Origin: Clostridiales bacterium CCNA10
Lineage (GTDB): Bacteria > Bacillota > Clostridia > Oscillospirales > Oscillospiraceae
Direction: 5' to 3'
DNA length: 64,000 nucleotides
Assembly (NCBI GenBank): GCA_003573975.1
Contig: AP018533.1
Span: 1,488,001 to 1,552,000, forward strand
Shown here: piece by piece, positions 7,732-49,176 of the stretch
Layout: every line of letters starts with the position of its first letter
Numbering within the stretch: the stretch's first letter is position 1
Position numbers and translations under genes: made by a program
The notes under the pieces: model-generated
The model's input: the letters and a program-made list of their open reading frames with translations, nothing else
Told to the model about the DNA's origin: nothing
Databases searched by the model: none

Positions 7732-7758
7732 GTACCACAGGGAGAAAAAATGTGGTAC
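7732..7758. repeat. Inverted repeat in the nrdR upstream region
   Basis: GTACCACA (7732-7739) and TGTGGTAC (7751-7758) are perfect inverted arms separated by 11 bases. The site lies 41 bases before the nrdR start in the divergent nitroreductase-nrdR region. It does not match the usual NrdR box. It could be an operator or a small leader hairpin. Confidence 0.5.
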
Positions 7759-7799: not shown

Positions 7800-8258
7800 A
7801 TGAAATGTCCTTACTGTGCGTATTTAGAGAGCAAGGTGGTGGATTCCCGGCCCGCGGATGAGGGGGCCAGCATCCGCCGCCGGCGGGAGTGCCTGTCCTG
7901 CCACAAGCGGTTCACCACATACGAGATGATGGAGAGCCTGCCCCTGGTGGTGGTGAAGAAAGACGGAAGCCGCCAGAGCTTCGACCGGAATAAGGTGATG
8001 AGCGGCCTGATCCGCGCCTGTGAGAAGCGCCCTGTCTCGGTGAATACTCTGGAGGAACTGGTCACAGAGATCGAACAGGTCCTTCAAAATGAGATGGAGC
8101 GGGAGGTCAGCTCCGCCATGATCGGCGAGCTGGTGATGGAGCGGCTGAAAAAGGTGGATGAGGTGGCCTATGTGCGCTTTGCCTCGGTCTACCGCCAGTT
8201 CAAGGACATCAATACCTTCATGCAGGAGCTGAACAAGCTGTTGGAGGACCGCAGATAG
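7800..8258 (+). CDS. nrdR: Transcriptional repressor NrdR
   Basis: 152 residues. The N terminus MKCPYC...[12 protein letters not shown] holds the four zinc cysteines of the rubredoxin-like domain, followed by an ATP-cone domain ([20 protein letters not shown] onward). NrdR senses ATP/dATP and represses ribonucleotide reductase genes. The start at 7800 is set by GGAGG nine bases upstream and by the family N terminus; the open frame extends further but without support. Its terminator has been split by the insertion sequence that follows. Confidence 0.95.
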
Positions 8259-8271
8259 ACACTTTGGAAAA

Positions 8272-8281
8272 GAGCCCGGGG
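8272..8281 (+). terminator. 5' arm of the nrdR terminator, separated from its 3' arm by an IS
   Basis: GAGCCCGGGG stands 13 bases after the nrdR stop. Its exact complement CCCCGGGCTC followed by TTTTT lies at 9597-9611, beyond the insertion sequence. Removing the IS and one copy of the AAT duplication restores a 10-bp stem with an AATCG loop and a U-tract. Confidence 0.85.
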
Positions 8282-8284
8282 AAT

Positions 8285-8315
8285 TGAACCGGTCCAGTAA
8301 AAACGGACAGTGACA
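8285..8315 (+). repeat. Left terminal inverted repeat of the IS
   Basis: It starts TGAACCGGTCCAG and contains GGACAGTGACA; about two thirds of positions match the right end when aligned with one gap. Confidence 0.75.
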
Positions 8316-8316
8316 A

Positions 8317-8359
8317 AAGCCCCCCTGATGTAGGAAAATAGACTACATCAGGGGGGCTT
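8317..8359 (+). promoter_or_regulatory. Perfect hairpin at the 5' end of the transposase message
   Basis: AAGCCCCCCTGATGTAG (8317-8333) pairs perfectly with CTACATCAGGGGGGCTT (8343-8359) around a 9-base loop. The 3' arm holds GGGGGG, the only purine-rich ribosome site before orfA (ATG at 8363). Transcripts arriving from outside would fold and hide it, a known way IS elements avoid being switched on by neighbouring promoters. Confidence 0.7.
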
Positions 8360-8362
8360 ATT

Positions 8363-8677
8363 ATGGAGAAACGGAACTACACACACATTCAAGCGCTGTT
8401 GCCTGAGATCAAAGCCATGCTGGCAGAGGGGAAAACCCAGCGGGAAGTTGCAGAACACTACGGCTTTCGGGATAAGCAGGTGGTAAAAAGGCTGCTTGAG
8501 CGTGAGCGGAGAAAAGAACGCAAGCTGGAAGCCGGGATCCTTCCACGGCCCAAAGGACGACCGAGGAAAGATGCCGCACCAAGAAACATTGTGGCAGAGC
8601 AGGCGTATGAGATCCATCGCTTGCAGATGGAGAACAAATTGCTGCGGGATTTTCTGCGGTCCACAGGAAGGAAGTGA
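8363..8677 (+). CDS. IS3-family transposase OrfA (helix-turn-helix)
   Basis: 104 residues, normal for an IS3 OrfA. It has a helix-turn-helix region, KTQREVAEHYGFRDKQVVKRLLERERR, at about 26-52 and a C-terminal leucine-rich helix, QAYEIHRLQMENKLLRDFL, likely for multimerisation. OrfA binds the inverted repeats. The stop TGA at 8675-8677 overlaps the GTG of orfB, which is in the -1 frame. No A6G-type slippery run is seen, so coupled restart is as likely as frameshifting. Confidence 0.88.
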   Translation: MEKRNYTHIQALLPEIKAMLAEGKTQREVAEHYGFRDKQVVKRLLERERRKERKLEAGILPRPKGRPRKDAAPRNIVAEQAYEIHRLQMENKLLRDFLRSTGRK

Positions 8678-9531
8678 GGGCAAGGGTAAAATACCACATC
8701 ATATATCGTCACAGAGAGGAATATCCAATATCCGTCATGTGCACGTTTTTTGCAGTATCCAGAAGCGGCTACTATGCGTTTGTCCACCGTCTGGACAGGC
8801 CGGAGAAGGATGCCGCTCTTGCAAAAGTTATCGCACAGCAGCGGGAACGCAGCTTCCGTACCTATGGCTACCGGCGGATGTGGCTATGGCTGAAAAGCCA
8901 GAACATTTTCTGTAATCCTAAAACTGTGCTGCGAATCATGAAAAAATATGATCTGCTGTCAGAGATCCGCCGCCGCAGGAAATGGCAGCAGATGGGGCAG
9001 CAGGTCCACAGGTATGAGAATCTGCTGAACAGAGGATTTCACGCAGATGGGCCAAACAGAAAATGGGTAACGGACATCTCCTACATCCACACCAAGCAGG
9101 GCGTACTGTACCTATCCATGATCCGGGATCTCTACGACAACAGTATTGTGGCTTACAAAACCGGAACGGAACAGACGGTGGGTCTGGTTCTGGACACCAT
9201 TCGTCTGGCAATGAAGCGAGAGAAAAAGAAGGTCGCTGCAGAACTCCACCTCCACAGCGACCAGGGATTTCAGTACACCTCGCGAGCATACTTCAACCTG
9301 ACTCAAGCATACGGCATTACACCGTCCATGTCAAGAAAGGGAAATCCATATGACAACGCCATGGCGGAAAATTTCTTCTCCATCCTCAAAACGGAGTGCA
9401 TTTACCGCCACAAACCGGCTACCTTCCCGGAAGCCAACGAAATGATCGACCGCTATATTCATTTTTATAACCATGAGCGCATCCAGTTAAAGACTGGAGA
9501 GGCGCCGCTTGCGCGACGCCTCTCCTACTAA
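8674..9531 (+). CDS. IS3-family transposase OrfB (DDE integrase)
   Basis: 285 residues with HTH_21-like N-terminal region (GYRRMWLWLKSQ) and an rve integrase core. The DDE triad is intact: D134 in WVTDISYIH, D196 in HSDQGFQYTS and E232 in NPYDNAMAENFFS, with 35 residues between the last two. The GTG start overlaps the orfA stop and has AGGAAGGAA just upstream, fitting translational coupling. No disruption was found, so the element may still be active. A hairpin (GAGAGGCGCCG...GACGCCTCTC) covers its last codons. Confidence 0.92.
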   Translation: MRARVKYHIIYRHREEYPISVMCTFFAVSRSGYYAFVHRLDRPEKDAALAKVIAQQRERSFRTYGYRRMWLWLKSQNIFCNPKTVLRIMKKYDLLSEIRRRRKWQQMGQQVHRYENLLNRGFHADGPNRKWVTDISYIHTKQGVLYLSMIRDLYDNSIVAYKTGTEQTVGLVLDTIRLAMKREKKKVAAELHLHSDQGFQYTSRAYFNLTQAYGITPSMSRKGNPYDNAMAENFFSILKTECIYRHKPATFPEANEMIDRYIHFYNHERIQLKTGEAPLARRLSY

Positions 9532-9561
9532 AACTCGATATTTCCTACCAGGGCTCTTTTT

Positions 9562-9591
9562 TGTACTGTCTGCATAATCTGGGGCAGTTCA
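9562..9591 (-). repeat. Right terminal inverted repeat of the IS
   Basis: Read on the minus strand it starts TGAACTGCCCCAG and ends GACAGTACA, matching the left end imperfectly. Confidence 0.75.
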
Positions 9592-9596
9592 AATCG

Positions 9597-9611
9597 CCCC
9601 GGGCTCTTTTT
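9597..9611 (+). terminator. 3' arm and U-tract of the split nrdR terminator
   Basis: CCCCGGGCTC followed by TTTTT, complementary to 8272-8281. It is now 1.3 kb away from its partner arm. Confidence 0.85.
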
Positions 9612-49102: not shown

Positions 49103-49176
49103 AGCGGGATTGTGTAAGGGTAGCACGACAGACTCTGACTCTGTTTGTGAGGGTTCGAATCCTTCTCCCGCTGCCA
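49103..49176 (+). tRNA. tRNA-Gln (anticodon CUG), CCA encoded
   Basis: Acceptor arms AGCGGGA and TCCCGCT, D-arm with GTAAGGGTAGCAC, anticodon stem ACAGA/TCTGT with loop CTCTGAC giving anticodon CTG, T-arm GGGTTCGAATCC, discriminator G at 49173 and CCA at 49174-49176. The cloverleaf folds without gaps. It decodes CAG. Stands alone with its own promoter and terminator. Confidence 0.95.

Follow-up and report, generated by a model that had tools for sequence, protein, structure and literature searches.

The nrdR locus in the window (the 64,000-nucleotide stretch of the Clostridiales bacterium CCNA10 genome analysed here) raises the question of whether an insertion sequence (IS) can choose transcription terminators as its targets. 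The gene (7800–8258, + strand; ATG at 7800, the open reading frame being listed from a GTG at 7752) encodes the Pfam Zn_ribbon_NrdR and ATP-cone domains, and its terminator is interrupted, 26 nt after the stop codon, by an IS3-family element of 1307 bp (8285–9591, + strand) that runs from TGAACC to GTTCA and is one of five copies of 1307–1308 bp in this genome. Read directly, the 5′ arm of the split terminator, GAGCCCGGGG (8272–8281, + strand), is preceded by an A-run and followed by the left target site duplication (TSD), AAT (8282–8284), which also supplies the first three bases of the loop. Beyond the element come the right AAT (9592–9594), the rest of the loop, CG (9595–9596), the 3′ arm CCCCGGGCTC (9597–9606, + strand) and the T-tract TTTTT (9607–9611, + strand). 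Once the flanks are joined, with the IS and one AAT removed, 8272–8281 pairs with 9597–9606, and the site reads GAGCCCGGGG-AATCG-CCCCGGGCTC-TTTTT, a long, strong hairpin whose loop measures 5 nt (−42.6 kcal/mol by RNAfold when 40-nt flanks are included, −33.0 with 30-nt flanks). Coordinates and fold thus confirm the preliminary description, which had placed the element, with its AAT duplication, exactly in the loop of the nrdR terminator. Elsewhere in the window are a THF riboswitch (RF01831, 56.8 bits, 1656–1788, + strand) and a tRNA-Gln (CTG; 49103–49176, + strand), the sole tRNA detected there by ARAGORN.

By family the element is an ordinary IS3 member; its novelty lies in its choice of target. 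The first gene, orfA (8363–8677, + strand), encodes 104 residues, among them a KGRPRK motif resembling an AT-hook, and matches an HTH domain weakly: in profile searches the match to HTH_28 (E 0.0065) fell below that model's cut-off, and OrfA alone matched IS3 transposase models weakly. The second, orfB (8674–9531, + strand), encodes a DDE transposase of 285 residues with rve and HTH_21 domains in a Pfam search, and OrfB scored 301 bits against the NCBIfam transpos_IS3 model NF033516 (cut-off 160). Motif positions reveal a DD(35)E triad formed by D134, D196 and E232, with 35 residues separating the last two. Two further hallmarks of the family are present, namely the overlap of orfA with orfB in the −1 frame, and TG...CA inverted ends accompanied by a 3–5 bp TSD, which was found in 39 of 68 distinct copies.

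Targeting of terminator loops had been proposed from the nrdR copy only. When the flanks of other copies were folded with the IS and one TSD removed, most sites proved to be terminator hairpins with the insertion in the loop (5/5 in the own genome, 12/13 in three other genomes and, at the looser of two cut-offs, 36/39 of the distinct copies with a TSD), and the proposal has held. The own genome, a single contig, contains five full copies among all 34 candidates scored; all five lie in terminator hairpins, the arms are unrelated between sites, and the TSDs are AAT, TGG, CAC, GTC and CCG. The left end of one of these copies (L002, G000:C1:2409692-2411005) bears an additional TGAAC (TGAACTGAACC) that lies inside the TGG duplication and looks like a doubling of the terminal 5 bp; the TGG duplication holds only if this TGAAC is counted as part of the copy. 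The left end of L002 was shifted by 5 nt by hand, and all other ends were set by inverted-repeat match alone. The genome also contains two remnants 74–77% identical to the element (G000:C1:704366-704629 and 2697873-2698168), perhaps from an older wave of related insertions.

In three further well-assembled genomes, final counts were likewise based on all search candidates scored. Full copies occupied terminator loops at 7/7 sites in G333 (10 contigs; TSDs of 3–4 bp), at 2/2 in G125 (2 contigs; one with a score of only 22) and at 3/4 in G078 (one contig), where full scoring added two copies, L291 and L297; three loci without two clean ends (L185, L300 and L302) were left out of the full-copy counts. 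Pseudoflavonifractor sp. Marseille-P3106 has eight copies (L040, L050-L055 and L097), all with a TSD, of which seven score at least 33 and one, L055, 16.5.

The wider set comprised 153 loci with OrfB identity of at least 57%, some of them one place fetched twice; clean ends on both sides, with flanks, were available for 79, of which 68 were distinct. A TSD of 3–5 bp was present in 39 and absent in 29. The strict test was an ungapped hairpin score of at least 24 together with an A- or T-tract, and the looser cut a score of at least 20. An earlier measure, which counted junction-crossing pairs, was abandoned for its leniency (8 pairs were attained by 408/569 mispaired flanks), and in the first folding set 23 of 76 loci were without clean ends or flank, four more loci (80 in total) not being entered. 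Among the 39 distinct copies with a TSD, 36 scored at least 20, 33 at least 24 and 30 at least 30, and because all 33 of the second group have an A/T tract, 33/39 also passed the strict test. The corresponding counts for 10000 random window positions were 774, 260 and 56, with 50 strict, and for 2012 mispaired flanks 160, 55 and 10, with 47 strict. Adding the later G078 copies L291 (48.5) and L297 (10.5) brings the totals to 37/41 at the looser cut and 34/41 in the strict test.

The choice of terminator loops is a strong preference, not an absolute one. Six of the 39 TSD copies miss the strict cut and three the looser one, and L297 was found later. The clearest exceptions are L297, an 83% relative in a single-contig complete genome (G078:C1:4081935-4082783; TSD AAA, score 10.5), and L217, an 89% relative on a viral contig (IMGVR_UViG_2882072473_000007; TSD CAGG, score 8), both of which lie in sites without a terminator hairpin. 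The preliminary description had held that hairpin-less sites would speak against targeting; such sites do occur at L297 and L217, and most TSD sites are hairpins nonetheless. Two other TSD copies fall below 20, L055 (16.5) and L121 (11); L121 shares its site with L058, and the joined flanks of L058 form a −22.6 fold whose apex is displaced from the cut. Copies without a TSD present a different picture: only 5/29 have a hairpin of at least 20, and their arms mostly do not match. Since 19/29 keep an A-run of at least 4 on the left and a T-run of at least 4 on the right (201/10000 at random), these copies may be recombined copies or short-read chimeras, resembling halves of different terminators. 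Recombination between IS copies is a known cause of TSD loss, according to the part of the source cited (PMC11708052), and short-read assembly through a repeated element would be a second possible source.

What the targets have in common is a layout. The 36 hairpins of TSD copies with a score of at least 20 have 36 different 5′ arms and no conserved stem sequence. When they are aligned on the dyad, information peaks at A (−20 to −15), C (−10 and −9), G (+9 and +10) and T (+14 to +19), with little near the dyad centre (at most about 0.4 bit), and the common architecture is an A-rich stretch 14–21 bp to the left, a GC stem, a loop and a T-rich stretch 14–21 bp to the right. Because the arms differ everywhere and only this layout is shared, the target is an architecture and not a sequence. 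The centre of the TSD lies no more than 2.5 nt from the dyad in 28/36 hairpins and 3 to 5.5 nt away in the remaining 8/36, and the TSD falls entirely within the loop in 20/36. We consider it highly probable that this IS3-family transposase strongly prefers intrinsic (rho-independent) terminators, inserting at or near the hairpin apex with a 3–5 bp TSD at or beside the loop; a hairpin inside the element, described below, would insulate it. The transposase may read shape and symmetry, as an extruded or looped hairpin and/or as paired A/T tracts, possibly with the involvement of the basic motif of OrfA. For the element, the gain would be landing sites that are both plentiful and harmless.

Reading of the tracts could also suffice by itself: the target would then be duplex DNA with an inverted A-tract and T-tract about 35 bp apart, recognised for example by the AT-hook-like motifs of OrfA, and the hairpin would be incidental. 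This is the best of the alternatives, and still an unlikely one. The two tract stretches (A −20 to −15; T +14 to +19) carry the highest information; a tract accompanies 33/33 TSD copies with a hairpin of at least 24, as against 218/404 such intergenic positions; and OrfA has GR[PKAT] in 66/68 relatives, with the exact [KR]GRP in 34/68, a motif that presumably recalls an AT-hook and that we take as a lead. Mispaired flanks, however, keep the tracts and not the pairing, and they reach the strict class in only 47/2012 cases, so that true pairing exceeds what the tracts provide, with the confounding circumstance that natural terminators have both. Hairpin, tracts and terminating polymerase are inseparable by sequence because natural terminators have all three.

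The polymerase is the basis of a second alternative, in which the transposase would be drawn to RNA polymerase paused at terminators, or else to the RNA hairpin or an R-loop. Transcription-coupled insertion would suit targets that are terminator-like hairpins rather than hairpins generally, but the sites have no orientation bias by tract (T exceeds A in 10, A exceeds T in 9, and the two are equal in 17), and the left-hand gene reads towards the element in 11/16 copies, which is a weak lean. We regard this explanation as improbable.

Selection without any targeting, whereby insertion is random and only copies between genes, where terminators are common, survive, is less probable by far. It finds some support in the gene surroundings of 16 copies from four genomes (simple ORF calling; L291 and L297 not included), since a gene-sized ORF facing the element ends 17–90 nt away in 15 of them and both neighbours face it in 8. 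These distances also fit the earlier suggestion that such insertions harm no gene, with the reservations that L002 has no facing gene-sized ORF and that several frames are open across the junction in a weak check for split genes, so that a split gene is possible. Intergenic window positions, however, pass the strict test in just 218/10067 cases, and in 70/10067 when the cut must also lie within 2.5 nt of the dyad, as against 33/39 (binomial p about 3e-49, with copies treated as independent) and 26/39 of the TSD copies. With intergenic controls so far below the TSD copies, purging of insertions in genes cannot alone explain the pattern, and it is not evident that an insertion within a terminator would be any safer than one beside it. 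Finally, that the arms are part of the element or created by insertion, as their presence around it in most TSD copies might suggest, is scarcely credible given 36 different arm sequences, TSDs placed between the arms and the element ends, and terminator hairpins, though of other sequence, at related places free of the IS.

The state of such places before insertion was approached through relatives. Sixty same-genus genomes, the own genome included, had an nrdR match, and 30 fetched loci yielded 29 congeners with nrdR identity of at most 90%. A hairpin of at least 24 lies downstream of nrdR in 26/29 congeners, with a tract in 24, and the sequences differ from the window site; 105/1000 random window stretches contained a hairpin of at least 24. 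Joined-flank queries, one site each, against the genera of G333 (7 genomes), G078 (itself only) and G898 (9 genomes) returned no exact empty site or close IS-free relative. The L266 site was sought across the two genomes of the G935 genus; its flanks have two matches 1452 bp apart in G1025 (C1:101455-103396), and this spacing suggests that the site is filled there too. The place, after a gene taken by eye for gyrB, may go back to one old insertion common to both genomes or may have been used more than once. Places in G1025 that match the IS150-like sites L264 and L267 of G935 are IS-free and have hairpins of 36 and 34 with A-/T-runs at the insertion point, in other sequence; at the L267 place only the right-hand gene matches, the left-hand gene being elsewhere.

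The element carries a hairpin of its own near its left end (8317–8359, + strand), with a 17-bp stem, a 9-nt loop and a predicted fold of −34.9 kcal/mol (z −9.4). A promoter-like pair, GTGACA-18-GAAAAT (8310–8339, + strand; 9/12 matches, by consensus only), has its second hexamer (8334–8339) within the loop, and a Shine-Dalgarno-like AGGGGGG (8350–8356) lies in the 3′ arm, before the ATG of orfA. Among relatives, a hairpin scoring at least 24 is found in 66/67 distinct left ends, mostly about 30–80 bp from the end, and a promoter-like pair occurs at one place in 65/68, most commonly TAGACA or GTGACA followed after 17–18 nt by GAAAAT, GATAAT or TAGAAT; here too the loop, or its edge, contains the second hexamer, and the 3′ arm has AGGGGG or AGGAGG ahead of the orfA ATG. 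Across 18 aligned left ends, 95.2% of cells are paired, compared with 43–55% when the partners are slid, and there are 13 double-change cells as against 4.0 in shuffles; this covariation analysis used 18/36 left ends, a CCTCC-type subgroup being shifted in the alignment and the others being judged singly.

The position of this hairpin suggests a role in separating the element from its surroundings. With both arms present the RNA has a folding energy of −34.9 kcal/mol; RNA from 8341 onward is nearly unstructured (−0.8). In readthrough RNA from the host gene, which would contain both arms, the orfA ribosome site would be hidden; a transcript of the element itself would begin inside the hairpin and leave that site free. 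As only the former would hold both arms, the hairpin would insulate the element from neighbouring transcription. Judged from sequence, readthrough RNA probably has its transposase start masked by this hairpin, an arrangement in keeping with an element resident in terminators. Termination of the upstream transcript may be a further effect; the hairpin is absent from the terminator-scan list, and its sense-strand U-tract is weak. The preliminary description had seen nrdR readthrough as a possible source of transcript into the IS, and sense readthrough would indeed enter it; as a transcript source the idea needs amending, in that the internal hairpin would hide the ribosome site of orfA.

A second group of IS3 elements shares the habit. 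Of these IS150-like Firmicutes elements (clade B), the ones retrieved with the window element share about 33–37% OrfB identity with it, and among distinct copies the score is at least 24 in 15/21 with a TSD and at least 20 in 7/20 without one. The own genome has such an element (L207/L233, G000:C1:404851), with one in-frame TGA in orfB, in a terminator loop with TSD AAA and a score of 29.5. Two IS150-like copies in G386:C9, L189 and L190, have similar flanks and TSD CCC, and their target may be a dispersed repeat. In the OrfB tree, in which some deep forks are weak, the clade of the window element (clade A) and the IS150-like clade are separate: clade A, with L136 and L188, is on a starred branch apart from the starred branch of IS150 (L222), ISKpn8 (L225) and ISEnfa3 (L223). 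L136, from the branch sister to clade A, also lies in a terminator loop. The IS150 subgroup thus resembles the window element in IS3-family chemistry, in its 3–4 bp TSD and, for clade B, in its use of terminators; it differs in that the window element falls outside the IS150 branch and in that, according to the parts of the sources cited, genes are the insertion sites of E. coli IS150 (dgt; PMC11708052) and of IS1447 (tdk; PMC6211511), the latter annotated earlier as belonging to this subgroup. Because E. coli IS150 is in a gene though it belongs to the second branch, the habit may be gained or lost within that branch. No terminator loop was found at IS600 (L224), IS150 (L222; an imperfect hairpin lies 8 nt off), ISKpn8 (L225) or the two copies of a 31% relative (L196, L197), and the case of ISEnfa3 (L223) is weak; only a small number of elements outside the two clades served as specificity controls, and a 37% group (L201-L206) and others were left out.

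Drawing these strands together, we tentatively propose, as an idea with somewhat less than an even chance of being right, that in two separate Firmicutes IS3 clades a DDE transposase reads the shape of the terminator (an extruded or looped hairpin plus A/T tracts) and not its sequence, and that the element's own terminator-like hairpin replaces the terminator it splits and blocks translation from readthrough, target and insulator being matched.

Other mobile elements offer partial parallels. IS1397, ISKpn1 and ISPsy8 are IS3-family elements that target REP or palindromic units, and the transposase of such REP-targeting elements is reported as apparently responsible for target choice, in the part of the source cited (PMC1525189). 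The comparison with IS1397 made in the preliminary description is fair as far as palindromes go, both being two-ORF IS3 elements that insert in palindromic extragenic DNA. It does not extend to the target itself: IS1397, ISKpn1 and ISPsy8 are described there as using a conserved repeat (REP), whereas the targets of the window element, with 36 distinct arms, are no conserved repeated palindrome and have terminator architecture alone in common. Class C group II introns, numerous in Firmicutes, likewise use rho-independent terminators as harmless sites, but these are retroelement ribozymes that insert immediately after the terminator, in the description cited in part (PMC8919778), and the window element is a DDE element that splits the loop. 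A class C group II intron was itself ruled out at this locus, where the insertion is in the loop and the ORFs are OrfA and a DDE OrfB. IS1630, of the IS30 family and so of a family other than IS3, inserts in terminator-like inverted repeats and makes long duplications. Among the matches listed in a search of titles and abstract beginnings in the open-licence literature, with ISfinder pages outside its scope, no IS was described as choosing rho-independent terminators or terminator loops.

If targeting by architecture is true, it would give a DDE transposon a safe-harbour rule that does not depend on sequence, reaching the niche of class C group II introns by a different chemistry, and insertion in gene-ending hairpins would spare the genes themselves. 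It opens to testing the question of how hairpins or A/T-tract palindromes are recognised by a transposase, and that of how readthrough is controlled in elements that dwell in terminators. The split sites also suggest that interrupted terminators would escape a terminator predictor, and that gene ends in gut Clostridia are being rebuilt by such elements.
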